IMG/VR virus record: IMGVR_UViG_3300020455_000051 | Location: 1-34,200 of that record | Reading direction: 5' to 3' (one strand) | DNA: 34,200 nucleotides | Source of the DNA: a virus | In this document: positions 85 to 31,183 of the stretch, one piece after another | Position numbering within the stretch: position 1 is the stretch's first letter | How the letters are laid out: each line of letters begins with the position of its first letter | The notes under the pieces: model-generated | What the model saw: only the letters and a program-made list of their open reading frames with translations | Told to the model about the DNA's origin: nothing | Database searches by the model: none | Program-made: the position numbers and the translations under genes

Positions 85-338
85 AACAGGCAAATTATCA
101 AGCCGAAAGTTTAAGATCTTCTGCTAGAGATATGGTTAAATTTGGTAAATTGGAATTGATGGCGAATGTAGCTATGGCTGGTTACAATTACTCAACTATA
201 GGATCAGCACCATCTCAAACTGCATCAACAAGTAATAACTTTTTAGATCCTTCCTACATGGATTATGGAACAACTGGCACAAGATCACAGTTTCTTGCTC
301 CTAGACCTCGTAGTCGATTTATGCCAAGTGGACAATAG
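1..338 (+). CDS. gp14-like internal virion protein, 3' part (gene continues from 33873)
   Basis: This is the C-terminal part of the gene that starts at 33873; the circle junction splits it. Translating 33873-34200 and continuing at base 85 gives a single 582-base frame, 193 residues, very close to T7 gp14 (196 residues). An internal ATG at 81 is in frame but is not the true start, since the frame is open upstream to base 1. The part here ends in a Ser/Thr/Asn-rich and then Pro/Arg-rich tail. In T7 the corresponding protein is stored in the capsid and ejected to form a channel in the outer membrane. The role here is inferred from size, the N-terminal residues and the position after the gp12-like tube gene. 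Confidence 0.8.
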   Translation, partial: PDIIQSYSLRAGLNDYSITRDNASIVMKQANYQAESLRSSARDMVKFGKLELMANVAMAGYNYSTIGSAPSQTASTSNNFLDPSYMDYGTTGTRSQFLAPRPRSRFMPSGQ

Positions 339-340
339 AT

Positions 341-8168: not shown

Positions 8169-8183
8169 AAAGGCATAATTTAA

Positions 8184-8212
8184 ATGACACAAATTTATTT
8201 TTACTGTATAAA
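8184..8212 (+). promoter_or_regulatory. Sigma70-like promoter for the tail-fibre block
   Basis: In the 66-base gap before the tail fibre, ATGACA (8184-8189) and TATAAA (8207-8212) are separated by exactly 17 bases. They match the -35 and -10 consensus at five of six and five of six positions. A ribosome-binding site (AAGGAAGG) follows at about 8219-8226, and the fibre gene starts at 8235. The phage carries no RNA polymerase, so host sigma70 promoters are expected. AT-rich sequence makes chance -10 matches common; the -35 and spacing raise the odds. Confidence 0.55.
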
Positions 8213-8234
8213 CACTATAAGGAAGGTATAAAGT

Positions 8235-9506: not shown

Positions 9507-9515
9507 GAGTAAAAA

Positions 9516-9848
9516 ATGGCACAAAATTTTAGACAATATAAAATGAGAGAAATAGGAACGAGTGCTACAGACATTCCAGATGGCAGTAACTTTGATAGTT
9601 ATGATTGTATCATATCAATAAGAATGACAAACATTACAACCAATGCAATATCGGTTGATGCTTACATTACAAATACAAATAATTTTTATCTTATAAAAGG
9701 TGTAACCATTCCAGCTCACAGCAGTTTGGAATTGATTGATGGTGGATCAAAGATCGTGGTTGTAAGTGGCGATAGATTATATTTCAAATCAGATACAGCA
9801 TCTAGCTTAGATGTAATTGTATCGGCAGTTGATGCGATAAGTACATAG
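9516..9848 (+). CDS. Small beta-rich tail-associated protein
   Basis: A 110-residue protein with a strong ribosome-binding site (AGGAG) just after the tail fibre stop. It has an alternating polar/hydrophobic pattern typical of a beta sandwich (NAISVDAYITNTNNFYLIKGVTI, then SLELIDGGSKIVV and DRLYFKSD), no cysteine, no signal peptide and no membrane segment. Similar short proteins next to marine phage fibres are usually annotated as hypothetical or structural. Its place inside the fibre block and its composition suggest a virion tip, decoration or fibre-junction protein. Function is not established. Confidence 0.6.
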   Translation: MAQNFRQYKMREIGTSATDIPDGSNFDSYDCIISIRMTNITTNAISVDAYITNTNNFYLIKGVTIPAHSSLELIDGGSKIVVVSGDRLYFKSDTASSLDVIVSAVDAIST

Positions 9849-9855
9849 GTGGAAT

Positions 9856-10707
9856 ATGGGATATGTAGGTAATGAACCAAGTGTAAACTTTACAAGTTTT
9901 GCCAAGCAAGACTTAACTGGTGTTACTGGTAGTCCAGCTAAAAGAGGATATACTCTAAGTCATGCAGTAGCAAATGCCAATGAGATTGAGGTATTTGTTA
10001 ACAACGTAAGACAAGAGCCGACAGAAGCTTATACAGCTAGTGGAACTGGATTAACCATGACTGGAGATGTTGAAACTTCAGATGACTTTTATATCATATT
10101 TTTAGGAAAAGCTATTCAAACAACTGTTCCTCCTGATGGAAGTGTAAGCACAGCAAAGATAGCAAGTAGTGCAGTCAATCTTACATCTAAGGTTACTGGA
10201 GTTTTACCAGTCGCAAATGGAGGTACTGGTTCAAGCAGTTTTACTGCATCAACAATGACTTTAAAAACTGCTGTAGCTACTACTTCAGGAACAGAAGTTG
10301 ATTATGGAAGTATTCCATCAGGAACAAAACGAATTACTGTAATGTTTAATGGTGTTAGTGGGAATGGATCAGATAATAGTGTGTTAGTACAACTTGGCAC
10401 AAGTAGTGGTTTAACAACATCAGGTTATGTTGCTCTTACTACTTGGGGTAGTGGTGCTGTTCAAGATAGTGGTGGTTTTATTGTTTATGGAATTAATAGC
10501 ACTAATACTATTTCAGGTATTCTTACAATATGTCATATGGGTTCAAATCTTTTTGTTGGCTCTCATGCTGTTAGATACAATTCATCTACTGGTGTGTTTG
10601 GTGGTGGTCATGTTCAATTAGGTGGAACTTTAGACAGATTAAGAATAAGACCAAATGGTTCAGATAGCTTTGATGCAGGTTCTGTTAACGTAATGTATGA
10701 ATCATAG
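9856..10707 (+). CDS. Secondary tail fibre/tip protein (two-domain)
   Basis: A 283-residue protein. The N-terminal 110 residues (VFVNNVRQEP, a YTASGTGLTMTG turn, SDDFYIIFLG, then PPDGSVSTAKI) form an attachment module that recurs, more diverged, in the gene at 11703. A short collar, VLPVANGGTGSSSF, resembles the 'GGTG' collagen-like joint of many fibre proteins. The C-terminal domain (about residues 145-283) begins with SGTKRITVMFNGVSGNGS and is Gly/Ser-rich and beta-type. The ribosome-binding site is GGTGGA. The gene is probably part of the receptor-binding apparatus together with its neighbours. The roles of domain types are known in general; the target is unknown. Confidence 0.7.
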   Translation: MGYVGNEPSVNFTSFAKQDLTGVTGSPAKRGYTLSHAVANANEIEVFVNNVRQEPTEAYTASGTGLTMTGDVETSDDFYIIFLGKAIQTTVPPDGSVSTAKIASSAVNLTSKVTGVLPVANGGTGSSSFTASTMTLKTAVATTSGTEVDYGSIPSGTKRITVMFNGVSGNGSDNSVLVQLGTSSGLTTSGYVALTTWGSGAVQDSGGFIVYGINSTNTISGILTICHMGSNLFVGSHAVRYNSSTGVFGGGHVQLGGTLDRLRIRPNGSDSFDAGSVNVMYES

Positions 10708-10716
10708 GAGATATAA

Positions 10717-11352
10717 ATGGCATTAAGCAAAATACAAGCTGAGTCAATGAACCTAGCAGATACCTATGCTTTTACTGGAAGTTTATCTTCTAGTGTTGGT
10801 CATAGTTTTGTTCCTGAATTTATAGGTAATTTATATTTAGCTGGTAACACTTCAGATGCTTGTGAGTTAACTGGTTGTTTTACAAATACTCATCAAGTTT
10901 ACAGATTGATTGGCGAGGTTGGTGCATCTTATGCAGGTGAATCTTATACTAAATTTTTCTTTTTAAGTGGAACAGACACAAAATTAGCATCAGGCTATTA
11001 TGGTAGAGGAAGGTCTTATGATGATGCTTCATCATCTTCTGATTCGGCTCAAGCAGATGGAGCTTTTGCAAATATAAATATGAATCAAGCATCAACTGGT
11101 TCAAATATTGTTGATATGTATTTTTATAGAAAACAACATGGATATCAATTATTGGGTACTGCTTCCTTTCACGATCAAAGTAGTGATAGAGGATATCAAC
11201 TTTTTGGTTGGAAAAATAATAGTGCTTTAGAGTTAACTGGCTTTAGATTAGAAAATGGAGCAGGTAATAATATGAGTGCAGTAAACTTTTCTGTCTATGG
11301 GTATAGGTTAAGACAAAATGCAACTGGAGAAATGTTAGGAGCATATCAATAA
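10717..11352 (+). CDS. Tail tip/receptor-binding candidate
   Basis: A 211-residue protein starting MALSKIQAESM, an opening it shares with the gene at 12577 (MALTKLNSASM). The rest is a beta-rich globular sequence (HSFVPEFIGNLYLAGN..., SYTKFFFLSGTDTKLASGYYGRG, ALELTGFRLENGAG) with Ser-rich loops. It has a good AGGAG site upstream, and its stop overlaps the next start (TAATG). The shared N-terminal peptide suggests docking onto a common partner in the tail, with the C-terminal part variable. Likely a receptor-binding or tip protein; I do not recognise a named family. Confidence 0.6.
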   Translation: MALSKIQAESMNLADTYAFTGSLSSSVGHSFVPEFIGNLYLAGNTSDACELTGCFTNTHQVYRLIGEVGASYAGESYTKFFFLSGTDTKLASGYYGRGRSYDDASSSSDSAQADGAFANINMNQASTGSNIVDMYFYRKQHGYQLLGTASFHDQSSDRGYQLFGWKNNSALELTGFRLENGAGNNMSAVNFSVYGYRLRQNATGEMLGAYQ

Positions 11353-11699
11353 TGGCTTATACAGTTAATGAAAAAACAAATGTTGCAACTTATAATAAAG
11401 ATACATTTCCACCAACACAAAAAACAGATGCTAAAACTGGTAAGATAACTTTAGTAGCAAAAACCGAAGCAGAATGTATTGAAGTAAAAAAAGTAAGAGA
11501 TAATGCTCCAGCTATAAGTTTGGATTTTCTAAGACAAAAAAGAAATAGCTTATTAGCACAAACGGATTACATGGCTTTATCAGATGTAGTTATGAGTGAT
11601 AAGTGGAAAACTTACAGACAAGAATTAAGAGATATAACCAAAACATTTAAGTCAATGAGTGATAAAGACTTTAAATTTCCAACAAAGCCAACGGAGTAA
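11352..11699 (+). CDS. Tail-assembly-chaperone-like protein
   Basis: A 115-residue protein whose second half (residues about 55-100: RQKRNSLLAQTDYMALSDV, then KWKTYRQELRDI) matches the short domain called phage tail assembly chaperone (Phage_tail_APC type: 'R..RN.LLa.tDw....D......w..YRq.LRD'). The N-terminal half is Lys/Thr-rich. Such proteins are usually encoded beside the fibre gene they help fold, which fits the position between two tip proteins. It is translationally coupled to the preceding gene. The family pattern is clear; the exact fibre partner is inferred from context. Confidence 0.75.
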   Translation: MAYTVNEKTNVATYNKDTFPPTQKTDAKTGKITLVAKTEAECIEVKKVRDNAPAISLDFLRQKRNSLLAQTDYMALSDVVMSDKWKTYRQELRDITKTFKSMSDKDFKFPTKPTE

Positions 11700-11702
11700 G
11701 CC

Positions 11703-12575
11703 ATGCCCTTTATAGGACAACAACCAACACAAGGTAGGTTTATAGAATTAGATAGTCTTACAGCTAGTGCTACAGACGATTATACATTGCAACTTAACTC
11801 GGCTAACTATTATCCTGAAAGTGTAAACAATCTTTTAGTTAGTATTAATGGTGTTATCCAAGGAAGCTCTACCATGAGTTTAAATGGTGCAGTCCTTACT
11901 GTAGGTGCTACGTTATCTTCTTCAGATACGATTGATTTTGTTAGAGTGTTTGGCAATGTAGGTACTGTATCAACTCCGACAGATGGAAGTGTAACTGCCA
12001 ATAAGATTGGAACTGGTGCTGTAACAAGTGCCAAGATAGCAGATGGTACTATTGTTAATGCAGATATAAATGCAAGTGCTGGAATTGTAGGAAGTAAACT
12101 TGGTACTGGTGCTGTGTTAAATGTTCTTCAAGAAACAACCGATACCAAAGGAAGTGCAATAGCATCTGGCAGTAACTCAGATGTTATTAGCCAAGCAATA
12201 ACTCCCCAATCTACAAATTCAAAAATATTAGTTAGATGTGTTATCCATATTGGTGCAGATTTAAATTCATATGGCTATGGTAGATTGCTTAAAGATTCAA
12301 CTGCAATAGGAATAGGCACTACAGCTAGTGGCAGTCAAATAAATGCTTCTTTTCAAGTTATGACAAAAAATTGGACTTATCAAGGTTATAGAACAAGTCC
12401 TCATGCTTTTGAATTTTTAGATGCACCAAGTACTACAAGCTCTATAACTTATAAAATTAATCTAGCTTGTACAAGTGGAAACTTATATCTAAATCGTTCT
12501 GGAACAGATGTAACAGATAATGTTTGGACACCAACTGTGTTATCAACTCTAACATTAATGGAAATAGGAGGATAG
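11703..12575 (+). CDS. Secondary tail fibre/tip protein with duplicated tip domain
   Basis: A 290-residue protein. Residues 1-115 are a diverged copy of the N-terminal module at 9856 (INGVIQ, LNGAVLTVG, SSSDTIDFVRVFG, TPTDGSVTANKI). Residues 100-150 are a spacer of repeated 'GAV-SAKIADGTI-NADI-ASA-GIVGSKLG' units. Residues about 165-290 form a tip domain (ITPQSTNSKILVRCVI, FEFLDAPSTTSSITYKI, STLTLMEIGG) that also makes up most of the next gene. The ribosome-binding site is CGGAG. Combined, this is a fibre with an attachment end, a helical or repeat spacer, and a receptor-binding beta domain. Confidence 0.7.
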   Translation: MPFIGQQPTQGRFIELDSLTASATDDYTLQLNSANYYPESVNNLLVSINGVIQGSSTMSLNGAVLTVGATLSSSDTIDFVRVFGNVGTVSTPTDGSVTANKIGTGAVTSAKIADGTIVNADINASAGIVGSKLGTGAVLNVLQETTDTKGSAIASGSNSDVISQAITPQSTNSKILVRCVIHIGADLNSYGYGRLLKDSTAIGIGTTASGSQINASFQVMTKNWTYQGYRTSPHAFEFLDAPSTTSSITYKINLACTSGNLYLNRSGTDVTDNVWTPTVLSTLTLMEIGG

Positions 12576-12576
12576 C

Positions 12577-13041
12577 ATGGCATTAACAAAACTTAATTCA
12601 GCAAGTATGCCTACTCATAGTGTAATACAAGTTGTACAAGGAGTTCTCTCAACTTATGCTAATCACGATACAGGTACTTTTACAGATACTGGTTTGACTG
12701 CATCAATAACACCTTCTTCAAGTTCAAATAAAATATTAGTTAAAGTTGCTGCTCTTGGCATATCTCAAAATGGATCTTCAGCAAAAACCGAATTAGCATT
12801 ACTACGAGGAAGCACTATAATTCAATATGCCTTAAGACCAGTTCTAACTAATGGTTCAGCTACTTTTGTTTCAGGAGCTTGTGCAATAGAGTTTTTAGAC
12901 ACTCCAAGTACTACAAGTGCTACAACATATAAGTTACAATTTAGAACAAGAGATGGAGGAGATTCAATAAGAATTAATGATTACCATACTGGCTCTGAAA
13001 GAAGCACATCTACTATTACGTTAATGGAGATTAAAGGTTAA
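12577..13041 (+). CDS. Tail tip protein, paralogue of the preceding gene's C-terminus
   Basis: A 154-residue protein. After a MALTKLNSASM docking opening shared with the gene at 10717, residues 40-154 parallel the tip of the protein encoded just upstream: ITPSSSSNKILVKV, IEFLDTPSTTSATTYKL and STITLMEIKG correspond to ITPQSTNSKILVRC, FEFLDAPSTTSSITYKI and STLTLMEIGG. The DNA around 12417-12460 and 12896-12940 is also alike, which indicates tandem duplication with divergence. AGGAGG lies 4 bases before the start. Likely an alternative or additional receptor-binding tip. Confidence 0.7.
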   Translation: MALTKLNSASMPTHSVIQVVQGVLSTYANHDTGTFTDTGLTASITPSSSSNKILVKVAALGISQNGSSAKTELALLRGSTIIQYALRPVLTNGSATFVSGACAIEFLDTPSTTSATTYKLQFRTRDGGDSIRINDYHTGSERSTSTITLMEIKG

Positions 13042-13083
13042 TGGCTAAACCTAAAAATATTTTAAAAATTTATGGAGAAATAA

Positions 13084-13191
13084 ATGCCTAAAACTATTGA
13101 AGAACTAAATCCAAAATTAGCTAAACCAAAACCAAAATCAAAGCCAAAGAAAAAGAATGAGCAAACCAACGATGCAAAGCCTACAAGCTGA
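13084..13191 (+). CDS. 35-residue Lys/Pro-rich micro-protein
   Basis: An ATG at 13084 preceded by GGAGAA at a proper distance opens a 35-residue frame. Its middle is an alternation of Lys and Pro (KLAKPKPKSKPKKK, residues about 11-24), with a net charge strongly positive. The next gene starts inside it at 13157. The composition is that of a disordered nucleic-acid or membrane-surface binder. It sits at the head of the lysis cassette. No family is recognised; the good ribosome site and overlap with the next start are the case for it being real. Confidence 0.5.
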   Translation: MPKTIEELNPKLAKPKPKSKPKKKNEQTNDAKPTS

Positions 13192-13315
13192 AATTAATAA
13201 TCTTAAATCAATCATTGAAGATTTAAGCTCAAGACTAAGGAGATTAGAAACAGGCATCTATGCTGGTATGGGATCTATTATATTATTATTAGCTTCACAA
13301 ATGTTTATGAGGTAA
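13157..13315 (+). CDS. Small coiled-coil plus TM protein (XhlA/holin-accessory-like)
   Basis: A 52-residue frame beginning at ATG 13157 inside the preceding micro-gene. Residues 7-32 form an amphipathic coiled coil (LQAEINNLKSIIEDLSSRLR), and residues 34-50 form one membrane segment (IYAGMGSIILLLASQMF). This 'short coiled coil then single TM' layout is that of haemolysin XhlA-type and other phage lysis accessory proteins. It lies four bases before the next gene of the lysis cassette. Assignment is by topology and position, not by firm sequence match. Confidence 0.6.
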   Translation: MSKPTMQSLQAEINNLKSIIEDLSSRLRRLETGIYAGMGSIILLLASQMFMR

Positions 13316-13319
13316 TCCT

Positions 13320-13790
13320 GTGCTGGAAGCTCTAGCTCTTGCTAATGGAGCATATGCCATAATAAAACAAACCATCGAGAATGGTCGTGAAATAAGTTCT
13401 GCTGGATCAGCTATAGCTAAATTTGTAGGTGCAGAAGATCAACTACAACAAGACCTACACAAAAGAAAAAATAGTATATGGACTAACTTTTTAGGCAAGA
13501 CCGATAATGACCTAGAAGAGTTTATGGCATTAGAGGAGATCAGACGTAAGAAGGAAATCTTGAGGGAGTTTATGCAGTTACATGGCAGAGCTAATCTTTA
13601 CACCGATTACATTGCATTTTGTGCTGAAGCTCGAAAGAACAGAAAACAAGCAAGACTAGATGCACATAAAAAAAGAGAACACATTAAAGATGTATTTTTA
13701 AAAGTTATTTTAGGAATTTTAATAACTGCTTTGTTTAGTGGAGTGATAACAGTTCTTGCAATTATAGCTAGAAAAAGAGGTTTGATATGA
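13320..13790 (+). CDS. Conserved phage protein with C-terminal TM in the lysis region
   Basis: A 156-residue protein starting with GTG at 13320 (GAGG about eight bases upstream; no ATG fits). The N-terminus ALALANGAYAIIKQTIENG is followed by GSAIAKFVGAEDQLQQ, a long charged helical region (DLEEFMALEEIRRKKEILREFM) and one C-terminal membrane span (residues about 128-150). I recognise this type as recurrent, unnamed proteins of marine phages, without a proven function. Its place among holin and endolysin genes and its tail-anchored layout suggest a lysis or membrane role. It overlaps the next gene by four bases. Confidence 0.65.
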   Translation: MLEALALANGAYAIIKQTIENGREISSAGSAIAKFVGAEDQLQQDLHKRKNSIWTNFLGKTDNDLEEFMALEEIRRKKEILREFMQLHGRANLYTDYIAFCAEARKNRKQARLDAHKKREHIKDVFLKVILGILITALFSGVITVLAIIARKRGLI

Positions 13791-13987
13791 GTGCATTTAT
13801 GTTGGCTTGTTATTTAAATGGTGTTGTTCAAGGAGCAATTTATTTTCGATCTGTAAATGATTGTAAATACTACACTAAATATTTAAACAACCAAACCTAT
13901 GAAACAGCTACAGGAAAAGAAGTTATATACAAATGTATTTGTAAAGTTGTGCCTAACATTGATCCTAAAAAAGTGAGGGTTTATTGA
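13787..13987 (+). CDS. Small cysteine-containing protein, unknown
   Basis: A 66-residue protein coupled to its upstream neighbour by an ATGA overlap. The N-terminus is weakly hydrophobic (AFMLACYLNGVVQGAIYF). Cysteines at 8, 26, 50 and 52 could form disulphides if exported; there is no clear signal-peptide cleavage site or lipobox. Positioned between two membrane-protein genes of the lysis cassette. I do not recognise the family. Confidence 0.6.
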   Translation: MSAFMLACYLNGVVQGAIYFRSVNDCKYYTKYLNNQTYETATGKEVIYKCICKVVPNIDPKKVRVY

Positions 13988-14199
13988 TGACAGAAGATAA
14001 AAAGAAATTAATAAATTTAGATTTGAGCAACAATTCTTTTGAGCTTTCACTTAGAATACTTGGCAATGAATTTGTCGCAATTAAAATCGGATCAACAAAT
14101 TTTAGTGGCAAGTTAATTGCTGGTGGAATCTTGTTATTATTTTTCACTTTAATTTTGCTTGAGGGATTTGGTTTAAACGAAATATTAAAAGGAGTTTAG
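13987..14199 (+). CDS. Single-TM small protein of the lysis cassette
   Basis: Start chosen at ATG 13987, which overlaps the previous stop (TGATG); a TTG three bases earlier is possible but needless. The 70-residue product has a charged N-terminal half and one membrane span at about residues 43-61 (IAGGILLLFFTLILL), ending in a short GFGLNEILKGV tail. The topology could suit a holin-like or antiholin protein, but size and sequence do not identify it. It is directly followed by the true three-TM holin gene. Confidence 0.6.
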   Translation: MTEDKKKLINLDLSNNSFELSLRILGNEFVAIKIGSTNFSGKLIAGGILLLFFTLILLEGFGLNEILKGV

Positions 14200-14200
14200 A

Positions 14201-14575
14201 ATGTTAACAGCATTGATACCAGCAGTTAGTGGGATACTGGATAAGTTTATTCCAGATGCAGATACTAAGCAGAAGTTGAGCCACGAAATAAGTACGATGG
14301 CAGAAAAACATCATCAAGAATTAATGTTAGCTCAAATCAAAGTTAATGAAGCTGAAGCAAAAGGTAACTGGTTTCAATCATCATGGCGACCTCTTACTGG
14401 TTATGTCTGTGTTCTCGGCTTTATGGTCAATTTTTTAATTTCGCCAATTTGTGCTGGGTTTGGAGTAATTATTCCACAAGCTGATACAGCTACAATGCTT
14501 CCAGTTTTAATGGGAATGTTGGGATTAGGTGGAATGAGAACTGTGGAACGATTAAAAGGTAAGGATAAAAAATGA
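14201..14575 (+). CDS. Three-TM phage holin (GTA-holin type)
   Basis: A 124-residue protein of the '3TM holin' family known from gene transfer agents and many alphaproteobacterial phages. It has an N-terminal hydrophobic helix (LTALIPAVSGILDKFIP), a charged amphipathic segment, the hallmark NWFQSSWRPLTGYVCV, two further hydrophobic segments (FMVNFLISPICAGFGVI and TMLPVLMGMLGLGGM), and a basic tail. Holins make lesions in the inner membrane that let the endolysin reach the wall or depolarise the cell. AGGAG lies upstream. The endolysin gene lies 0.2 kb downstream, completing the usual pair. Confidence 0.88.
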   Translation: MLTALIPAVSGILDKFIPDADTKQKLSHEISTMAEKHHQELMLAQIKVNEAEAKGNWFQSSWRPLTGYVCVLGFMVNFLISPICAGFGVIIPQADTATMLPVLMGMLGLGGMRTVERLKGKDKK

Positions 14576-14784
14576 TCTGGGTTTGGCTAAAATTTTTTAG
14601 ATTTTTTAATAAAATTGGAAATTATTTTTATTTACTTCATGTAAATGCTCTTCACTTAAAACTAAGAAAGGAAAAAGAAATGCCAAAAAAAGCTGAAATG
14701 TCTAAGAGAAAATCAAAAACTACAGTTAGTGCTAAACCATATTCTAATATGAAAAAAAGTTATCCTAAAAAGAAAAAGAAATAA
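14572..14784 (+). CDS. Basic Lys-rich small protein with possible dual start
   Basis: The frame opens at ATG 14572, overlapping the holin stop (ATGA), and gives 70 residues: an aromatic, hydrophobic N-terminus (IWVWLKFFRFFNKIGNYFYLL) then a very basic tail. A second in-frame ATG at 14680 has a much better ribosome site (AGGAAAAAG) and would give only the 34-residue basic tail (14680-14784), ending in five lysines. Both may be made. A membrane-anchored and a free version of the same basic peptide would result. The role is unknown; position is between holin and endolysin. Confidence 0.55.
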   Translation: MIWVWLKFFRFFNKIGNYFYLLHVNALHLKLRKEKEMPKKAEMSKRKSKTTVSAKPYSNMKKSYPKKKKK

Positions 14785-14785
14785 C

Positions 14786-15253
14786 ATGGCACAGCTCTCT
14801 AAAAACTTTACTTTAGCTGAACTTACTAAATCCCAGACAGCAGAAAGAAAAGGTATAGATAATTATCCAAGTGCTGAACAAATTTTTAACTTAACTTTGT
14901 TGGCTGAAAATATACTGCAACCTATAAGAAATAAATGGGGATCTTTTTTAGTTAGTTCTGGGTATCGTAGTGAAGAGCTTTGTCTTGAGATTGGATCAAA
15001 AAGTACCAGCCATCATTGTTGTAACGATGGCTTTAGTGCAAGTGATTTTGAGGTAGCTGGTGTAGATAATTATGAACTAGCTGTATGGATAAGAGATGAA
15101 AGTAATCTCCCCTACTGTCAGCTCATATTAGAATGTTATAAAGGTGGTAATTCTGGATGGATACATATTAGCCACCATCCAGAAGATATTAGAAAAGAAT
15201 GTTTAACCTATCATAGATCACAAGGTTATAGAAAAGGATTACTGCCTAAATAA
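14786..15253 (+). CDS. M15-type peptidase endolysin
   Basis: A 155-residue protein of the peptidase M15_3/VanY-like group that cleaves peptidoglycan cross-links. It has the typical opening NFTLAELTKS, the SSGYRSEELC segment (residues 57-66), zinc-ligand candidates H77 and D87, then E116 (QLILE) and H127 (GWIHIS). The usual motif has six residues between the first His and Asp; here there are nine, with an unusual HHCCND stretch, so three residues appear inserted. It has no signal peptide, consistent with release through the holin. It ends eight bases into the convergent minus-strand gene. Confidence 0.85.
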   Translation: MAQLSKNFTLAELTKSQTAERKGIDNYPSAEQIFNLTLLAENILQPIRNKWGSFLVSSGYRSEELCLEIGSKSTSHHCCNDGFSASDFEVAGVDNYELAVWIRDESNLPYCQLILECYKGGNSGWIHISHHPEDIRKECLTYHRSQGYRKGLLPK

Positions 15254-15485
15254 TCTTGATACCTCTAGGCAATGTATGACGTTCAATCCATCCCCTATCT
15301 TTTAAGTGGTGCAGATGAATAGAAACAGATGTTGGAGAAGTTCTTTCTTTAAGAACTTGCTGGTCATCTATCTTGCCTTTGCATATCTCTCTAACAGTAG
15401 GATAAACTCCTTCTTCTTTATGAAATGCTATAAGAAATTCATAGATTTGTTTTTGAGAAATAGTTAAGCCAATTTTATTGTCCAT
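15246..15485 (-). CDS. LexA-like winged-helix DNA-binding protein (no peptidase domain)
   Basis: A 79-residue protein that reads like the N-terminal DNA-binding domain of LexA alone: LTISQKQIYEFLIAFHKEEG, YPTVREIC, then SVSIHLHHLKDRGWIER. Between helix 2 and the recognition helix there are about eight more residues than usual (KIDDQQVLKERT). The C-terminal autoprotease is missing. It may bind a phage operator or a host SOS-type box without responding to RecA cleavage. It is the last gene of the minus-strand operon and overlaps the RecT gene by 11 bases. The convergent endolysin overlaps its end. Confidence 0.75.
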   Translation of the reverse strand: MDNKIGLTISQKQIYEFLIAFHKEEGVYPTVREICKGKIDDQQVLKERTSPTSVSIHLHHLKDRGWIERHTLPRGIKII

Positions 15486-16413
15486 TCTGATTCTCCTTTG
15501 CCTGTAGAGATAATGCTTTATTAAAATCTAATCTTTGCTGTTTAACTTCTGAAATAAATTTTTCTGGAAAATTATGCATAATCAATTCTAGGTTTATATG
15601 CTCAAAGTCTTTTAACATTGTCCTCTTTTCTTCTGGTTGTAGTTTAGGACTAGCATAAACAGCACTCATTATTTCTTTGTATCTTTTGACAACATTATCA
15701 ATTTCATCAAATGTTTCTGATGGTTTATTATTTAATAACTTTAGTTCATAAGATACGTTAACAGTTTGTTCATCTTGCTCAACAGTATCATTCTCGGCTG
15801 TATTATCGTCTGTGAGAGCATTAACTATGCTATTAGCTAGATCTGCATCATTTGTAATAATAGGTGGATTAACGACCTTTATATCGCTAGTTTTTGCTTC
15901 ATCTGGAAAATCCACAGCTTCTTCTGTTGTAATAATTCCTTTAATAGCATCTGGAAAAGCATCTCTTAATGCAAATCCTCTAGCTCTTTGAGCTAACATT
16001 CTTTTAGGATATGACTTCCAAGCACCACCTTTATTTAAAAGACCAGCTTTAGTTGCATCTTCTAAAGAAAATTCTCTCAAAGTTTCTTCAACAGTATCTT
16101 TAACTTTTCTTTTTACAATGCAAAAAGCAGTATCGCCTTCCAGCCATTCTTTCATACCATAATAATCTGGATGCTTCTTACAAACAGCTACTAAAGCATC
16201 TCCCCACAATGTAGCCTTACCATTTATAACATTTATATTTGATAAAGCTTGCATTGGTGGTAAACCAACTTCATATCCCCATTGAATAGCAACTAAAATA
16301 TTTTGTGGTTTACCTTTATAGGCATCTGGAACTAATCCAGATTTAGCTAATGTTTCTGAAAACTGCATAGCTTCTGTTAAAGACTTAGGTTCTAGCATAG
16401 TTAAATTTGGCAT
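15475..16413 (-). CDS. recT: RecT-family single-strand annealing protein
   Basis: A 312-residue protein of the RecT/Red-beta-like family, which anneals complementary single strands during phage recombination. Family features are visible: LTEAMQFSETLAKSGLVP near the N-terminus, ILVAIQWGYEVGLPPMQALSNI..INGKATLWGDALVAV (about residues 45-85), then WKSYPKRMLAQRARGFALRDAFPDA (about 130-155) and a TTEEAVD end. The last 120 residues are acidic and coiled. It starts on the base where the exonuclease gene ends, so the two are translationally coupled as a classic two-component pair. Confidence 0.9.
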   Translation of the reverse strand: MPNLTMLEPKSLTEAMQFSETLAKSGLVPDAYKGKPQNILVAIQWGYEVGLPPMQALSNINVINGKATLWGDALVAVCKKHPDYYGMKEWLEGDTAFCIVKRKVKDTVEETLREFSLEDATKAGLLNKGGAWKSYPKRMLAQRARGFALRDAFPDAIKGIITTEEAVDFPDEAKTSDIKVVNPPIITNDADLANSIVNALTDDNTAENDTVEQDEQTVNVSYELKLLNNKPSETFDEIDNVVKRYKEIMSAVYASPKLQPEEKRTMLKDFEHINLELIMHNFPEKFISEVKQQRLDFNKALSLQAKENQNGQ

Positions 16414-18174: not shown

Positions 18175-18687
18175 TCAAATTGGCATGTTTTGTTCTGAAG
18201 ATGCAAATTGTTCTTGCATCAATTTTTCAAAATCCATAAGTCTGTGATGTGCAATACCGATCTGCACTCCTGCAATATCTTTTCGCCATTCACAATACAT
18301 TTCCATCGCTTCTATAAGTGGCTGTGATGCTTGACAGCTAACAGTTGCACCTTTTTTTTGAACTTCAATCCAACCTTCAGCTTCACACTCATTAATCATA
18401 GTCGAAATGGTCTGTCTATTGCTGTGCATTTCATTTACAAGCTCTGTAATCGTGTAAAATCTATTTGCATAAGCTCCATACACCATCCAACGAGAAAAAG
18501 CATTTTTTAAGGGTGTCGAATTGAAATATCTTTGTATTTTAGTCATTGATCGAGTTTGCCTAGCTTGAAAGACAGCCATTTCAACTTCTATAATTTTCAT
18601 ACGATAATCATGCAGTAAATGCCTATGTATACTCTCAACAGAATTGTGAATGCTTGAATTGTCGCAACATTGTTTTGTATTGTTCAT
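18175..18687 (-). CDS. Winged-helix (MarR-like) DNA-binding protein
   Basis: A 170-residue protein. The N-terminus has a Cys/His-rich start (KQCCDNSSIHNSVESIHRHLLH). The central helices carry a helix-turn-helix (about residues 80-112: YTITELVNEMHSNRQTISTMIN) followed by a wing strand EGWIEVQKKG, as in MarR-type regulators. The C-terminus is helical and could dimerise. Its start overlaps the stop of the serine recombinase gene, so both are made together. Likely a regulator of this operon or a partner of the recombinase; the target is not known. Confidence 0.65.
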   Translation of the reverse strand: MNNTKQCCDNSSIHNSVESIHRHLLHDYRMKIIEVEMAVFQARQTRSMTKIQRYFNSTPLKNAFSRWMVYGAYANRFYTITELVNEMHSNRQTISTMINECEAEGWIEVQKKGATVSCQASQPLIEAMEMYCEWRKDIAGVQIGIAHHRLMDFEKLMQEQFASSEQNMPI

Positions 18688-19436
18688 TATTTCACTCCCT
18701 TAGATCTTAAATACATATTTCTAATAGTTGATCCATGCCATTCGCCTTTTCTGGCAGTTGGATAACCTCTCTTATTAAAATCCAAAGCTATCTCCCTATA
18801 AGACCATCCCATGTCTAGTCCTCTCTGGATGTTAGGTAATAGATTATCAGCTAGTTCATTAGCTTTAATCTTATTGCCCATAGCACCTTTCTTCTGTGCC
18901 TTCTTAGTCATACCAACTCCAAGCTTGGTAATCTTATTGCCAGATCTTGATACATGAGATCCATTAACTTTTATGTCATGTTTAATTCTGGCTAGTGCAG
19001 TTTTAGTTCGTTCTGATATGAGCTGTCGTTCATGTTGATTCATAACTGCCATGAAACCAACTGTAGTTTCATCCAGCATAGGATAGTCAACAACTATAAG
19101 TTTGATTTTGCCTTGCGATATAACATCGTCAAAGAAGTTAAGAACATCCCCTCTCCTTCTACCTAATCTGGATAAAGAATAGATGATTAAAGTTGCTTTG
19201 TTTTTTCTGCAATACTTAATGGCATCATTAAGTACTGGTCTTTTTGCCCATTCGGTTTTACCAGATACAGCTTCTTCCTTAAACCATTCTACATGATGAT
19301 CGCCACCATTTAGATATTGTTTGATTGCAAAGATCTGGTTTTCAACATCCTGTTTGTCGGTTGATACACGAACTAAAGCACAATATTTGCCTGTATGCTT
19401 TTTGCCATGATCAGCTCTAAGAATATTAGTTTCCAT
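18687..19436 (-). CDS. Small serine recombinase (resolvase/invertase family)
   Basis: A 249-residue site-specific recombinase. The resolvase domain (residues about 17-160) shows the nucleophile S25 in ALVRVSTDKQ (with R23), then IIYSLSRLGRRRGD with R90 and R93/94, and FMAVMNQHERQLISERTK, all family hallmarks. Residues about 190-245 (ANELADNLLPNIQRG.., YREIALDFNKRGYPTARKGEWHGSTIRNM) resemble the start of the 'Recombinase' domain or a resolvase HTH. The zinc-ribbon and coiled coil of large serine integrases are absent. It may resolve genome multimers, act as an integrase-like enzyme, or invert DNA. No att site is evident. Confidence 0.88.
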   Translation of the reverse strand: METNILRADHGKKHTGKYCALVRVSTDKQDVENQIFAIKQYLNGGDHHVEWFKEEAVSGKTEWAKRPVLNDAIKYCRKNKATLIIYSLSRLGRRRGDVLNFFDDVISQGKIKLIVVDYPMLDETTVGFMAVMNQHERQLISERTKTALARIKHDIKVNGSHVSRSGNKITKLGVGMTKKAQKKGAMGNKIKANELADNLLPNIQRGLDMGWSYREIALDFNKRGYPTARKGEWHGSTIRNMYLRSKGVK

Positions 19437-20398: not shown

Positions 20399-20801
20399 AT
20401 CCTTTTCAAAATTTAAAAATAAAAAAGTTAAGCTGGATGGCTATACATTCGATAGTTTATCTGAAGCAAAGCATTATCAACACTCCCTACTCCCAAGATT
20501 TAAATCTGGAGAAATAACACATTTAAAAGTTCATCCCAGATTTAGATGCATGATTGATGATGTAAAGATATGTGATTACATAGCTGACTTTTCTTACATA
20601 GATAGAAATGCAACTGGATTACAGGGACAAATAGGCTGTGAAGTTGTTGAGGATGTAAAAGGTTTTAAAACCGATGTTTACAAGCTCAAGAAGAAGCTGG
20701 TCGAAGCTCTTTATAGAGGAACTAAGATCATAGAAATAAATCCTAAAATATATTCAAAAATAGAACTGGAGTTAAGCAATGATGCAAAAGAAAGTAACTA
20801 A
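20388..20801 (+). CDS. DUF1064-type PD-(D/E)XK endonuclease
   Basis: A 137-residue protein with the DUF1064 signature: YTFDSLSEAKHY (E26), GEITHLKVHPRF, YIADFSY (D67) and VVEDVKG (E88, K91), i.e. the restriction-endonuclease-like core. Members occur in phage replication modules and are thought to act as Holliday-junction or branch nucleases. Its place between a regulator and the initiator candidate, with a RecT pair on the other strand, fits DNA replication or recombination. Substrate not shown by sequence. Confidence 0.85.
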   Translation: MFPRSFSKFKNKKVKLDGYTFDSLSEAKHYQHSLLPRFKSGEITHLKVHPRFRCMIDDVKICDYIADFSYIDRNATGLQGQIGCEVVEDVKGFKTDVYKLKKKLVEALYRGTKIIEINPKIYSKIELELSNDAKESN

Positions 20802-21322: not shown

Positions 21323-21567
21323 TGGATAAAATTTATTACAATGAAATTAATGCACAAACTAGATCTTTAGTTGTCTGGTTAGATGATCTTAAAAATAATC
21401 CAGATCAAATAATTAAGATGCATAAACATCATATACACCTTATTGAAATGAGAGCTTGTACTGCTTACACACAGCCTTTTCATAAAGATAAAAAGATAAA
21501 TAAATGGATAACAGATAAGATCTATGATGTTGTTAAAGTTCACAGGATACAAGAATTAGATGCTTAA
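21322..21567 (+). CDS. 81-residue unknown early protein
   Basis: A His/Lys-rich helical protein (SLVVWLDDLKNNPDQIIKMHKHHIHLIEMRACTAY). It overlaps the initiator candidate by eight bases. No membrane segment or signal. No family recognised; co-expression with the initiator suggests a replication or early role. Confidence 0.6.
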   Translation: MDKIYYNEINAQTRSLVVWLDDLKNNPDQIIKMHKHHIHLIEMRACTAYTQPFHKDKKINKWITDKIYDVVKVHRIQELDA

Positions 21568-22669
21568 ATCAGATATAACACCAGATCCAATTAGAGATGC
21601 ACCAGTAGGAGAACATCAATCTCCAGCTCCTTATATCATAGTTCCAGCAAGAGCTTTCGGAGATACTAGATTCAACCAGTTTCCTTCTACATTTAGATGC
21701 CTAGCTTTATGTTCTGCCCATGCTTCAGCAAGAGCTGGTATATTCTTCTGTAATCAACAAACTCTGGCTTCTGTTATGGGATCTTCTCAACAAGCAGTAT
21801 CCCAACATATGAATAAGCTGGTAAAGTTCGGTTACATTGAAAGACTTAGAAAAGCCAATAATAAAAGACCTTATGGTCAACAAGGAGCTAAATGGAGAAT
21901 AATATATGATCCTAGAATGAACCTAGAACAAGCCATAGCTAATAGCTCTGAAGGAGATGATATAGAAGCTCAAGAAACACTAGATAAGATAACTCCTAAG
22001 AAACCAGTAAGAACTAACATAAGTCCAAAACAAGAAGAGTTAGCTAAATCAATAGCCGATAGATATATTAAAGATGAAAGAGAATACTTTAGCTACGATA
22101 GAATATTAGCTGATATTAAAACATACCTGTTATCAGAACAAACTATTGAAAGCTGGAATAGTCTGGGAAATGGTCTTACTTCTCCAATAGAAAAAGGATA
22201 CTTAAAGCCTAATAATACTGTAAATAAAAACAAGCCACAGCTTGTAAATGGTAAAATAGAAAACAAGCTCCAGCTTGTAAAAGAGAATACCAAATACAAG
22301 TCCCAGCTTGTATCAGAAAACAAGTCCCAGCTTGTTAGTAACAATATAATATTAACTAGTAATAATAGTATAAATGAAATTGAAAAGAAAAAGATATGTA
22401 ATAGTTATATGAATATTATACAAAAACATTATGGAAGAGCTTGGAGCTATGATCTAAGACAAGTGGAATTAGCTGGAGATGTAATAAGAGCTGGTTATAC
22501 TATTGATAGTTTTATAGCTGATGCTGAAGGTTTAATAGAATGGAATAAGAAGAACAATAAACAACCACCACATTCTCTTCAATACTTCATAGCTAGGAAG
22601 AACAACAGTAAGAAGCCAATGGATGCTAAAGATATAGTTAAACAGTTGGCTGGAAAGTTAAAGGTATGA
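21560..22669 (+). CDS. Replication-initiator candidate (winged helix + iteron-encoded linker)
   Basis: A 369-residue protein. Residues about 40-110 carry a winged helix (FRCLALCSAHAS, then QQTLASVMGSSQQAVSQHMNKL and GYIERL), as in replication initiators such as RepA-type and lambda O proteins. Residues about 224-259 are a repetitive linker of four K-x-QLV units encoded by 16-bp palindromic iterons. The C-terminal domain (SYMNIIQKHYGRAWSYDL... HSLQYFIARKNN) is an unnamed helical region. The genome has no recognisable DNA polymerase, primase or helicase, so an initiator that recruits host replication proteins is expected. Assignment rests on the fold, iterons and gene order; it could instead be a regulator. 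Confidence 0.7.
   Translation: MLKSDITPDPIRDAPVGEHQSPAPYIIVPARAFGDTRFNQFPSTFRCLALCSAHASARAGIFFCNQQTLASVMGSSQQAVSQHMNKLVKFGYIERLRKANNKRPYGQQGAKWRIIYDPRMNLEQAIANSSEGDDIEAQETLDKITPKKPVRTNISPKQEELAKSIADRYIKDEREYFSYDRILADIKTYLLSEQTIESWNSLGNGLTSPIEKGYLKPNNTVNKNKPQLVNGKIENKLQLVKENTKYKSQLVSENKSQLVSNNIILTSNNSINEIEKKKICNSYMNIIQKHYGRAWSYDLRQVELAGDVIRAGYTIDSFIADAEGLIEWNKKNNKQPPHSLQYFIARKNNSKKPMDAKDIVKQLAGKLKV
22230..22335. other. Candidate replication origin: four 16-bp palindromic iterons
   Basis: Four near-identical 16-mers, ACAAGYYMCAGCTTGT, begin at 22230, 22263, 22296 and 22320 (spacings 33, 33, 24). The first is ACAAGCCACAGCTTGT; the third and fourth are the same, ACAAGTCCCAGCTTGT. Each contains a dyad (ACAAGC/GCTTGT or close). 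They lie inside the initiator gene, and an AT-rich stretch (about 22336-22430) follows directly. This is the layout of the lambda origin, where O-binding iterons lie in gene O next to an AT-rich unwinding element. A fifth copy is at 29824. Confidence 0.7.
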
Positions 22670-22841: not shown

Positions 22842-23312
22842 ATGGCACAATATAAGTTTAGTTTAATTTACATTTTAAGTATTGTTTTAGTTAACATAGG
22901 GTTTGTATATGTTCCATTAATACCATTATTTGATACGATGTATCCACCTATGACGATTGCTGTAGGTTTAATTTTTATTCTAAGAGATTATGCCCAAAAA
23001 GAAATAGGTCATAAAGTTTTAGGAGCTATGTTAATTGGTGGTTTGTTAAGTTATGTAATGGCTGATCCATATATAGCTGTGGCATCATTAGTTGCTTTTA
23101 TGGTTTCTGAAACTGTTGATTGGGGTGTTTATACTTTAACAGACAAGCCTTTACGACAAAGAATATTATTAAGTTCTTTAATATCCACACCGATAGATAG
23201 TGGTTTATTTCTTTACATGATAGGTCAATTTAGTCTGACTGCAACATTGGTAATGTTTGTTTCAAAGATGCTTGGTGCTTTAGCTGTATGGCATTGGTTG
23301 GCAAAAAAATGA
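22842..23312 (+). CDS. VUT/YhhQ-type queuosine-precursor transporter
   Basis: A 156-residue inner-membrane protein with five or six hydrophobic segments. The stretch PPMTIAVGLIFILRDYAQKEIGHK (about residues 32-55) and the SETVDWGVYTLTDKPLRQR segment after the third to fourth spans are strong marks of the VUT_1/YhhQ family, which imports the deazaguanine preQ0 (or preQ1) used for queuosine and for 7-deazaguanine DNA modification. It is preceded by AGGAC and overlaps the next gene by ATGA. No export signal other than membrane spans. The next gene, TGT-like, is the obvious user of the imported base. Confidence 0.85.
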   Translation: MAQYKFSLIYILSIVLVNIGFVYVPLIPLFDTMYPPMTIAVGLIFILRDYAQKEIGHKVLGAMLIGGLLSYVMADPYIAVASLVAFMVSETVDWGVYTLTDKPLRQRILLSSLISTPIDSGLFLYMIGQFSLTATLVMFVSKMLGALAVWHWLAKK

Positions 23313-24010
23313 TTCATTATCATGGAACACCATTAACACCTAGAGAACAGTTATATAAAATGGCTGGTAAACATTTCTGTGTAAGTTTTGCAGATGCAAG
23401 AGATGCAGATCTTTGTTTACAAATAGGTCAATCTATAATGTGGGATAATGGTGCTTTCACATCTTACACTCAAAACAAGCAGATCGATTATAACAAATTG
23501 TATGCTTGGCTTGAGCCTAAACTTGGTCATCCTCATTGGTGTGTTATTCCAGATGTTATAGGTGGTTCTATTAAGGATAATAAAAAACTTTTGTTACAGC
23601 ATCCTTTTCCAGAAAATTTATCATCTCCTGTATGGCATCTTAATTTAAATATAGATTATCTTCTTTTCTTAACAGATAGATATCCAAAAATTTGTTTTGG
23701 TAGTTCTGGCGAATATTGGAAAGTAGGATCTGATAAATGGTGCAATAGAATAGATGAAGCATTTAATGAGTTAGCAAAAAAACATAGGCATTTACCACAT
23801 ATTCATATGCTTAGAGGATTGGCACAAGCTGGAAAAAAATATCCATTTGCTTCTGCTGATAGTGTTAATGTAGCTCGTAATTATAAAGATAAAAATTTAT
23901 GTCCAGAATTGATGGCTAGAAAAATTGATGCCATTCAATGCCCAGTAAAATGGGTTCAGCAACCAACTCAACAACAATTAAAAGTAATAGGAGAAACATT
24001 ATGGCAATAA
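23309..24010 (+). CDS. TGT/DpdA-like deazaguanine transglycosylase
   Basis: Start chosen at ATG 23309, which overlaps the transporter stop (ATGA); a frame start at 23288 would enter the transporter gene. The 233-residue protein has the elements of a tRNA-guanine-transglycosylase-type TIM barrel: MWDNGAFTSY (D46, cf. TGT DSGGF), VIPDVIGG (D82), ICFGSSGEY, and YPFASADSVNVARN with D184 as the likely nucleophile. It is shorter than tRNA TGT (about 375) and lacks the C-terminal zinc site with its Cys cluster, as in DNA-directed DpdA proteins. Probable role: exchange of guanine for preQ0-type base in phage DNA. A role on tRNA is not excluded. Confidence 0.72.
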   Translation: MIHYHGTPLTPREQLYKMAGKHFCVSFADARDADLCLQIGQSIMWDNGAFTSYTQNKQIDYNKLYAWLEPKLGHPHWCVIPDVIGGSIKDNKKLLLQHPFPENLSSPVWHLNLNIDYLLFLTDRYPKICFGSSGEYWKVGSDKWCNRIDEAFNELAKKHRHLPHIHMLRGLAQAGKKYPFASADSVNVARNYKDKNLCPELMARKIDAIQCPVKWVQQPTQQQLKVIGETLWQ

Positions 24011-29798: not shown

Positions 29799-29992
29799 AC
29801 TCTATAAGTATCATTAAGACTTTACAAGCTACAGCTTGTGATGTAATTATTATATTAATCTATAACCTATTTTCTATAGGCAGATTTGGTTTATGTGAAA
29901 ACATACGTTGCAGAACGATATCTGTAGCCAAAGGCTGGATTTATCCAACAACCTAGATGGTGTTCATTTTTTAACTTTAACAGGAGTTGATT
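29799..29992 (+). promoter_or_regulatory. Capsid-gene leader with consecutive hairpins
   Basis: A 194-base non-coding gap in a genome where most gaps are below 20. Potential stems: 29824-29839 (ACAAGC/GCTTGT), 29866-29880 (CCTAT/ATAGG), 29892-29905 (TATGT-GAAA-ACATA, a GNRA tetraloop), 29911-29924 (CAGA/TCTG), 29926-29936 (AGCC/GGCT), and 29936-29947 (TGGAT/ATCCA). GGTT (888-891 of this kilobase) and GTTG (907-910) could pair with AACC and CAAC near 29949-29953 to close a multibranch. TTTACA at 29821 with TAATTA at 29844 (17 bases) is a possible promoter. Structured leader, regulatory RNA or packaging/origin element are all possible. Confidence 0.5.
29824..29839. repeat. Fifth initiator-type iteron
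   Basis: ACAAGCTACAGCTTGT differs by one base from the first (22230) and one base from the second (22263) iteron in the initiator gene, and no other complete copy was found in the window. It lies 154 bases before the capsid gene start. It could let the initiator act on late gene expression, or form a secondary origin. Confidence 0.65.
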
Positions 29993-30853
29993 ATGTCAAC
30001 AAATCTATCTCCAGCTTTCGTGCAATTATTTGATGCAGAGGTCAAACAAGCCTATCAAGGTACTTCAATGCTTCAAGGAATAGTTCGTACTAGATCTGGT
30101 GTCGAGGGATCGACAGTAAACTTCCCAACCATCGGAAAAGGATCTGCCACAGTTCGCACTCCTTCCACAGATGTTGTGCCTTTAAACTCTTCTTTTGCAT
30201 CTGTTTCATGTAGTCTTACAGACTATATTGCTTCAGAGTATTCTGATATGTTTAACCAACAAAAAGTGAATTTTTCAGAGAGATCTGAACTTGCACAAGT
30301 TGTTGGATCTGCAATCGGAAGAAGGCAAGACCAAATCATCCTAGATGCTTTAGCTTCTGCTTCTGCTGGATCTACAGTAGCTAATACTGTGGTTACAAGT
30401 GGTAGTGCAAGTGCTTCAAACCTTTCGGTAGGTAAGGTCATACAGGCATCAGAAAAGCTAAACATCAAAAATGTACCAGCAACAGACAGACACATGGTTA
30501 TTCATGCTTCTGGTTTAGCTGGATTACTAGCTGATGAAAGAGCTATTAGTGCAGATTATGCATCTATAAAAGCTCTATCACAGGGAAGTGGTCGCATTGG
30601 AGAGTTCATGGGATTTACTATTCATGTAATTGGAGATCGAGATGAAGGTGGTCTTGCCAAAGATGGAAGTAATGACAGAACAAACTTTGCTTTTCATAAA
30701 TCTGCTGTGGGTTGTGCTGTCGGCATAGCTCCTAAGACAGAAATTAACTATGTCCCAGAAAAAACTTCATTCTTAGTAACTGCAATGCTCTCAATGGGTG
30801 CTGTTGCTATTGATGCAGATGGTATCTGTGATGTTATTACAAGGGAGAGTTAA
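29993..30853 (+). CDS. Major capsid protein
   Basis: The ATG at 29993 lies six bases after AGGAG; an in-frame TTG six bases earlier is less good. The 286-residue product (MSTNLSPAFVQLFDAEVKQA) reads as an HK97-fold podovirus capsid protein: YQGTSMLQGIVRTR, EGSTVNFPTIGKG, the RRQDQIILDAL helix, ADERAISADYASI, and MGFTIHVIGD. Its position after the scaffold and before a decoration-like gene is the norm. Shorter than T7 gp10A (345). The assembled shell would be T=7-like by inference. Confidence 0.9.
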   Translation: MSTNLSPAFVQLFDAEVKQAYQGTSMLQGIVRTRSGVEGSTVNFPTIGKGSATVRTPSTDVVPLNSSFASVSCSLTDYIASEYSDMFNQQKVNFSERSELAQVVGSAIGRRQDQIILDALASASAGSTVANTVVTSGSASASNLSVGKVIQASEKLNIKNVPATDRHMVIHASGLAGLLADERAISADYASIKALSQGSGRIGEFMGFTIHVIGDRDEGGLAKDGSNDRTNFAFHKSAVGCAVGIAPKTEINYVPEKTSFLVTAMLSMGAVAIDADGICDVITRES

Positions 30854-30855: not shown

Positions 30856-31137
30856 ATGGCTTTTTCAAGAACTGGATGGAATCCTATTGGTGGGCAATCC
30901 AAAAAAGGCACAGCTCCCCAAATCTTCTCATACACTTCTACCGATACTGTAGCCACAGCTAATACTGCTGGTTACTTCAATGATGTATCAGATGAAGTTT
31001 CTGTAGGAGATATGATCTTTTCTAACACTTCAACTGGTGGAACTTTAGTTGCTACATTGCTTTATGTTGTAAGTAATGCTTCTGGAGTTGTCGATGTTAA
31101 CGATGGAACAACACTAGCTAATACAGATAGTGATTAA
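30856..31137 (+). CDS. Small head protein (decoration/fibre candidate)
   Basis: A 93-residue beta-rich protein (PQIFSYTSTDTVATANTAGYFNDVSDEVSVGDMIFSNTS), with no cysteine or membrane span. It lies two bases after the capsid gene and ends before a strong terminator, so it should be made in capsid-like amount, which fits a decoration or head-fibre protein. No name I can support. Confidence 0.65.
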   Translation: MAFSRTGWNPIGGQSKKGTAPQIFSYTSTDTVATANTAGYFNDVSDEVSVGDMIFSNTSTGGTLVATLLYVVSNASGVVDVNDGTTLANTDSD

Positions 31138-31144: not shown

Positions 31145-31183
31145 GGTAGGAGCATCTTTATGATGCTCCTTACCATTTTTTTT
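31145..31183 (+). terminator. Rho-independent terminator after the head genes
   Basis: A stem GGTAGGAGCATC / GATGCTCC-T-TACC (12 pairs with one bulged T) and a five-base loop TTTAT are followed by eight T (31176-31183). It closes the capsid unit just eleven bases before the gp11-like gene, so it probably lowers tail-protein transcription relative to the capsid. The strongest terminator in the window. Confidence 0.88.

Follow-up and report, generated by a model that had tools for sequence, protein, structure and literature searches.

The major capsid protein (MCP) is needed in far greater amounts than most other virion proteins, and to our knowledge little has been learned about how marine phages that depend on the host polymerase achieve high capsid output. 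The T7 record shows one layout for this step: the phi10 promoter lies between the scaffold and MCP genes, the terminator Tphi follows MCP, and the tail tube gene comes next. Structured RNA at the start of phage transcripts is also described for HK022, in which the putRNA, about 70 nt long with two stem-loops, arises at putL just downstream of PL and, in the portions of the report drawn on here, needs no phage protein (PMC9378689). Other structured RNAs, manA and wcaG, lie upstream of genes in marine cyanophages, according to the portions of that paper used here (PMC2864571).

The locus compared with these systems comes from a viral record of 34,200 bases, analysed at its full length and called the window below. 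By capsid it comes closest, among named phages, to Methylophilales phage MEP301 (57.7% identity along the full capsid).

The capsid leader and its surroundings

Between the scaffold stop codon at 29798 and the MCP ATG at 29993 lies a gap of 194 nt (29799-29992), in which no plausible reading frame was found (Table 1). The portal gene of the window matches phrog_332 and the tail genes 3' of the terminator-like hairpin match phrog_394 and phrog_376; the scaffold ORF has no PHROG match and is named from its position and its MEP301 counterpart. Two adjoining genes elsewhere in the window (22842-23312 and 23288-24010) resemble a family of putative vitamin uptake transporters (PF02592, slightly below cut-off) and a queuine tRNA-ribosyltransferase (phrog_887), a pair suggestive of 7-deazaguanine modification in phage DNA or tRNA. 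A serine recombinase or DNA invertase-like gene (18687-19436; PF00239, phrog_125) sits in a genome that otherwise looks lytic.

Table 1. Coordinates of features in and around the capsid leader of the window
Feature	Position	Strand	Details
O-like replication initiator gene with four iterons	21560-22669	+	phrog_270, E 1.6e-8; O-like phrog_345; MarR winged helix PF01047
Iterons of the promoter dyad	22230-22245, 22263-22278, 22296-22311, 22320-22335		spaced 33, 33 and 24; inside 21560-22669
sigma70-like promoter (predicted)	29821-29850	+	TTTACA 29821-29826, 18-nt spacer, AATTAT 29845-29850, TG before the -10
Perfect DNA dyad ACAAGCTACAGCTTGT	29824-29839	.	in the promoter spacer between TTTACA and AATTAT; first hairpin of the original prediction
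Module hairpin P1	29857-29886	+	AAUCU-AUAA-CCUAU uuucu AUAGG-C-AGAUU
Long strand AUAA of the P1 4x1 internal loop	29862-29865	+	opposing C at 29881
Tentative stem closing the middle arm	29887-29930	+	UGG 29887-29889 with CCA 29928-29930; weak basis
Middle-arm hairpin A	29892-29905	+	UAUGU-GAAA-ACAUA; GAAA tetraloop 29897-29900
Middle-arm hairpin B	29910-29925	+	loop ACGAUA; relatives ACGUA, GCGUA or CGUAA
Module hairpin P4	29932-29954	+	AGG-C-UGGA uuua UCCA-ACAA-CCU
AU-rich linker	29955-29992	+	UUAACUUUAA at 29971-29980; Shine-Dalgarno AGGAG 29982-29986
MCP gene	29993-30853	+	phrog_3437, E 5e-51
93-aa gene	30856-31137	+	phrog_18004, function not known; probably co-transcribed with MCP
Intrinsic terminator 3' of the capsid unit (predicted)	31145-31183	+	stem 31148-31170; extended stem and T run from sequence

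The original prediction saw this gap as a structured non-coding leader with six hairpins, one carrying a GNRA tetraloop, and an outer pairing. The non-coding gap, several real hairpins and covariation are borne out, but the anatomy is different. Downstream of the -10 box the RNA runs through P1, a middle arm of two hairpins, P4, an AU-rich linker, the Shine-Dalgarno sequence and the start codon. P1 and P4 are modules, each a hairpin with a single asymmetric internal loop in which AUAA or ACAA (AYAA) faces one C. This repeated AYAA/C loop, shared by the first and the last hairpin of the RNA, is the informative feature that the prediction missed, while the GAAA hairpin that it named is present as hairpin A. 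Its outer pairing, taken from the minimum-energy fold, was rejected as conserved structure because it depends on bases upstream of the likely transcription start. The window thus carries a tandem two-hairpin 4x1 AYAA/C arrangement directly upstream of MCP.

In the window, P1 has the four-base strand on its 5' side and P4 has it on its 3' side; in the group of relatives around phage EXVC032P both modules have it on the 3' side, so the module is permuted with its loop unchanged. The middle arm is absent or reduced in two leaders (L003 and L020), and the CGU(A) loop of hairpin B recurs in the group E and C alignments. From the end of the last module to the MCP start the median distance is 38 nt (quartiles 34-43, 51 leaders), so the ribosome site stays outside the fold. 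The window linker holds the ten-base string TTAACTTTAA, found in 3 of 85 leaders against 0.06 in shuffles, and TTAAC occurs within the last 55 nt of 31 of the 85 against 11.3 in shuffles. By eye, no consistent pseudoknot pairing joined the hairpin-B loop or the linker with the tail. RNAalifold pairs the CC of the P4 outer stem (29952-29953) with an invariant GG (29959-29960) in 10 of 10 leaders, two pairs that never vary. In group B (e.g. L035), GUCAGCC between the middle arm and P4 can pair with an upstream GGCUG or with CUG of the downstream P4, the two being mutually exclusive.

Predicted promoter and candidate replication initiator sites

The window promoter matches at 9 of 12 positions, a level common by chance (24 such matches found, 37 expected). 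Across the 56 leaders that have a first module, a promoter at this position recurs: combined scores of at least 9 occur in 22 of 56, against 10.6% of shuffles, and of at least 10 in 13 of 56, against 1.8%. Extended -10 boxes appear in group E, and outside this group the promoter signal is modest. In the 56 leaders the best -10 box lies a median of 11 nt upstream of the first module, so the RNA is predicted to begin at P1 or a few bases earlier; in the window the start should be near 29857.

The first of the six hairpins originally proposed (29824-29839) therefore needs another explanation. It is upstream of the likely start, within the promoter spacer, and it probably acts as DNA, like an operator or iteron, not as RNA; several of the other hairpins are real. 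The pattern ACAAGCTNCAGCTTGT, with at most three mismatches, has 12 matches in the window (both strands counted) against 1.6 expected. Two are single weak matches; the rest are the copy in the promoter and the four at 22230-22335. The four copies are inside the putative O-like initiator gene. Iterons inside the initiator gene O are familiar from the lambda origin, and the window shares this arrangement; the additional dyad copy in the capsid promoter sets it apart from lambda. A second record (L005; G004, 32.9 kb) has three dyads, two of them within the gene of a protein with 39% identity and the third in the promoter of its MCP gene. A looser pattern, ACAAGN6CTTGT, is found in 8 of the 15 records searched, a set that includes several short fragments; the 15.5 kb examined of the L008 record showed no iteron cluster. 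Since the dyad stands in the capsid promoter and the iterons in the initiator gene, the replication initiator probably binds the capsid promoter, where it would repress or activate; the shared sites suggest that the initiator may regulate capsid transcription. Another dyad, ACAAGAGCAAACTTGT, overlaps the first MCP codons in the L006 and L007 records (G005 15691-15706 and G006 20674-20689).

A repeated internal loop

Could the recurrence of the AYAA/C loop reflect the way it was searched for? In a scan that permitted any 4x1 loop, imposed no loop sequence and asked only for stems of at least 8 pairs in total, ANAA/C made up 59 of 140 4x1 hairpins in 85 non-redundant MCP leaders; in five sets of shuffles it made up 3 of 360. 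A stricter descriptor, A[CT]AA/C with at least 7 pairs, was composed after groups A, B and part of E had been viewed. Applied to 74 non-redundant leaders, it finds two modules in 32, one in 16 and none in 26. Two modules never occurred in 1480 shuffles, 43 of which had one, nor in 615 windows of 200 nt taken downstream. The 26 leaders without a module are mostly from a freshwater group with a variant loop, and the remainder include true absences.

Across both strands of the 34.2 kb window, the only tandem module pair is that of the MCP leader, and the same is true of EXVC032P. A lone module is not diagnostic, since a scan of HTVC010P for any ANAA loop with at least 8 pairs returns seven single hairpins, among them P1 of the MCP leader. 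The strict scan yields no pair in CKB-S2 (L084) or MEP301, because a stem is short or a loop variant; in CKB-S2 both modules stand back to back.

Covariation supports the fold

Folding energy says little about this region. The gap has a z-score of -1.68, with 14 of 200 shuffles folding equally well, and 29857-29957 a z-score of -1.78, with 6 of 200, both weak signals. It is covariation, rather than folding energy, that makes the structure convincing. Comparison among homologues, the kind of check put forward with the original prediction, revealed that four groups of leaders carry compensatory changes on both sides of their pairs. Group A (alignment A3) comprises ten leaders including the window, with L003, L005, L006, L007, L009 and L015 excluded. 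Here P1 is 100% paired, 6 of its 8 pairs have changed on both sides, and 18 of 29 pairs overall show two-sided change (score 0.477, against 0.233 when shuffled and about 0.1 when the structure is slid). The weak points are the arm-closing stem and hairpin A, with 55% and 66% of cells paired, partly through misalignment by MAFFT.

The remaining groups agree. In the EXVC032P group (E; alignment A6, 21 of 34 non-redundant leaders, excluding L164, L158 and leaders whose middle arm is shortened), 96.0% of cells are paired and 14 of 23 pairs show two-sided change, for a score of 0.407 against 0.168 shuffled and 0.03-0.08 slid. Groups B (A7) and freshwater (A8) were hand-picked at 15 and 16 leaders, the divergent L048, L058, L066, L077, L080 and L082 being left out of A8. 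Two-sided changes affect 6 of 16 pairs in group B, with 96.2% of cells paired, and 9 of 24 in the freshwater group, with 90.4%; one freshwater pair was scored as 32-46 for 32-45, which lowered the support for that helix. The freshwater loop varies more, approximating [AC]NNA opposite C. The number of further pair types did not exceed shuffles in group A (418 of 500 reach the value) or group B (280 of 500). Without a given structure, RNAalifold on A3 recovers P1 and part of hairpin B and misses P4, partly because MAFFT aligns P4 poorly.

These results bear on whether the structure is mainly a by-product, in which the gap is a DNA-level regulatory region of promoter and iteron with generic stabilising hairpins. 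The unremarkable folding energy and a spacer dyad that probably works at the DNA level are what such a region would offer, but two-sided compensatory changes in four groups, and a loop statistic obtained with no loop imposed, make this extremely unlikely.

Occurrence among aquatic phages

How closely is the element tied to the capsid gene? IMG/VR was scanned with the EXVC032P form of P4 only, which matched at least 120 stretches. Among the matches listed, counting places with at least 150 nt downstream, an MCP relative follows at 115 of 117, and the two places without one have a single module only. Strict P1 lies upstream at 12 of 20 non-redundant places among the matches listed, against 14 of 400 shuffles; the other eight, inspected by eye, comprise six with a variant-loop or shorter-stem P1 and two (L290, L363) with neither P1 nor MCP. 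Together with covariation in four groups, this association gives strong support to the original claim that the capsid gene has a structured non-coding leader.

So tight a tie to MCP would suit autoregulation, in which free capsid protein, bound to both modules, would reduce translation of its own mRNA or make that mRNA less stable, and two copies of one site fit a multimeric protein. However, the loop stays constant while MCP identity to the window drops to 27-29% in HTVC010P and EXVC032P, so the loop has persisted longer than most of the protein sequence; moreover, the modules end about 38 nt upstream of the start codon, and close relatives lack a module. Autoregulation by the capsid protein is thus judged distinctly unlikely.

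The distribution among named phages is broad and uneven. HTVC010P and its relatives have P1 in the form GUAAG-ACAA-UUC-GCAA-GAA-C-CUUAC and, by eye, a probable P4 using AGAA. In HTVC010P (L087) P1 and the 3' end of gp08, annotated as a small gene (1227-1403), overlap, so coding and RNA constraints coincide in phages of this type. Under a relaxed descriptor, Jormungand, CRP-403, ct9yY11, ct3Et533 and Hodr have possible single or paired modules. Two groundwater podovirus-like phages (L264, ct3Et533; L262, ct9yY11) carry module-like hairpins before MCP, some of them variants in which U faces GCAA. Modules were not found ahead of MCP in L083 (SI2), L085 (Vibrio phage 1.257.O), L091, L259 (Lau218) or L263, nor, even with the relaxed descriptor, in L090 and L092. 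Of the 50 Vibrio records two were examined, CKB-S2 with the module and 1.257.O without.

The MCPs of L091 and CKB-S2 are 83% identical, yet the L091 leader is a plain strong hairpin and that of CKB-S2 two modules, a natural leader swap useful for functional tests. A plain strong hairpin also occupies the module position in 1.257.O. This looks as though a firm 5' hairpin of any kind could serve part of the function, although the plain hairpins in these two phages could be terminators of upstream genes.

Attempts to capture all groups with a single covariance model failed, as the group A and group E models miss each other's members; the groups are linked by architecture and loop only. The group A model (R1), whose training set included the window, matches 10 of 57 sources at E<=1; its match in HTVC204P (L090) has an E value of 0.04. 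Group B contributes two of the ten, and no match falls in the freshwater or EXVC032P groups. The EXVC032P-group model (R2) matches 14 of 58 sources and none in group A or HTVC010P, and its match in L088 (minus strand, E 0.51) resembles a chance match. A scan of genome contigs with the CKB-S2 capsid gave 41 candidate stretches, of which none was confirmed.

A proposed role in capsid expression

Three roles were originally considered for the leader: mRNA stability, an RNA switch for capsid expression, and a small RNA. A free small RNA finds no support, because there is no terminator before the ribosome-binding site. A ligand-sensing riboswitch or other conditional switch has in its favour a complex conserved fold in a 5' UTR and alternative pairings, such as the P4 3' strand with the invariant downstream GG and the group B CAG strand that pairs either way. 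Against it, no terminator hairpin precedes the gene and no other expression platform was seen, the last module lies a median of 38 nt from the MCP start, and neither ligand-linked context nor metabolic genes accompany the leader. Nor did an Rfam search, another check suggested at the outset, match any family: at the Rfam 15 gathering threshold there were no matches in the window, 20 loci and 15 further sources, and permissive thresholds gave a single sub-threshold match (rli38, E 4.9). A switch is consequently very unlikely.

A role in mRNA stability and expression is preferred, and the analogy with T7 points to high capsid output from its own mRNA as the basic task. According to this reading, given an even chance of being right, MCP has a dedicated mRNA whose 5' untranslated leader, supplied by the gap, raises capsid output through 5'-end protection and an open ribosome site. 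Transcription would initiate at about 29857 from the sigma70-like promoter in the scaffold-MCP gap. The extreme 5' end of the RNA would fold as P1, followed by the variable arm and P4, and then by an unstructured AU-rich ribosome landing site, MCP, the small gene and the terminator. By the T7 gene 10 layout, the leader would shield the mRNA 5' end and keep the ribosome site open, yielding more capsid. A strict scan for a post-capsid terminator finds one at 6 of 77 loci, against 2 of 385 shuffles; it misses the window's own terminator and is thus insensitive.

Stability alone does not account for the conserved loop, as a plain hairpin would protect the 5' end. Such strict conservation implies either a conserved factor that may read the loop or docking of the two modules, P1 and P4 making a tertiary contact. 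Candidate readers are RNA polymerase in a put-like manner, the ribosome, an RNase and the capsid protein. RNA polymerase would be the reader if the leader were a cis-acting antitermination RNA like HK022 put, the nascent RNA binding its own polymerase and reading through the post-capsid terminator and about 19 kb of late genes. Two irregular hairpins do start the transcript just past the promoter, ahead of a long late operon, and the loop is conserved across the named hosts Pelagibacter, Methylophilales and Vibrio, so that its reader would be conserved machinery. Yet a terminator directly after the capsid unit favours excess capsid over terminator bypass. Further, no convincing plus-strand terminator was found in window positions 1-15500, leaving little to antiterminate, and the element is present once in the window and once in EXVC032P. 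Antitermination is thus considered unlikely.

A wider version of the leader reading is more tentative, with clearly less than an even chance: a tandem AYAA/C RNA device common to many abundant aquatic podovirus-like phages may be recognised by a conserved host component (RNA polymerase, ribosome or RNase) that thereby sets the capsid level, while in the window group the initiator site in the promoter would tie capsid transcription to replication. The phages counted here are of the HTVC010P, EXVC032P and MEP301 types, CKB-S2 and possibly some Autographiviridae. The same motif pair in the same place in many distantly related aquatic phages is probably a shared device for the abundant shell protein. 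It offers a defined sequence element to test at the capsid-production step of HTVC010P and its Pelagibacter-infecting relatives, a new RNA internal-loop motif to solve structurally, a capsid-gene marker for metagenomic and metatranscriptomic data, and possibly a leader that could be transferred to express proteins in streamlined marine bacteria.

Comparison with known systems

Structured phage 5' leaders are already known; the present fold, its repeated loop and its spread constitute, as far as found in the Rfam and literature searches made, a new RNA family. Full-text searches on structured or noncoding RNA before phage capsid genes, on HTVC010P RNA, on pelagiphage promoters and leaders, and on internal loops in connection with capsid turned up no description of the element. 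The portions of the Skadi-1 pelagiphage report drawn on here give promoters near replication genes and no terminators, tRNA, tmRNA or ribonucleotide switches (PMC10504331), so the element seems to have been overlooked there. The manA and wcaG RNAs differ in belonging to other genes and to T4-like phages, and the word "capsid" is absent from the text of that paper as available here (PMC2864571). HK022 putL and putR resemble the present RNA as two irregular stem-loops near a phage transcript start, in the portions of the report drawn on (PMC9378689). The likeness is one of description, not sequence, and put belongs to the early operons of a lambdoid phage.

T7 differs in having a promoter for the phage's own polymerase and one plain hairpin in the gene 10 leader, which lacks the AYAA/C module. 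The T7 gene 9-10-Tphi-11 layout is nevertheless that of the window: scaffold, promoter (predicted in the window), leader, MCP, terminator, tail tube. The gene 10 leader joins its 5' hairpin to the linker TTTAACTTTAA, much like the UUUAACUUUAA-type linker before the ribosome site of the window. A 5' hairpin, an AU-rich UUAACUUUA linker and a terminator after MCP are thus common to T7 and the window, where the 5' end is a predicted one.
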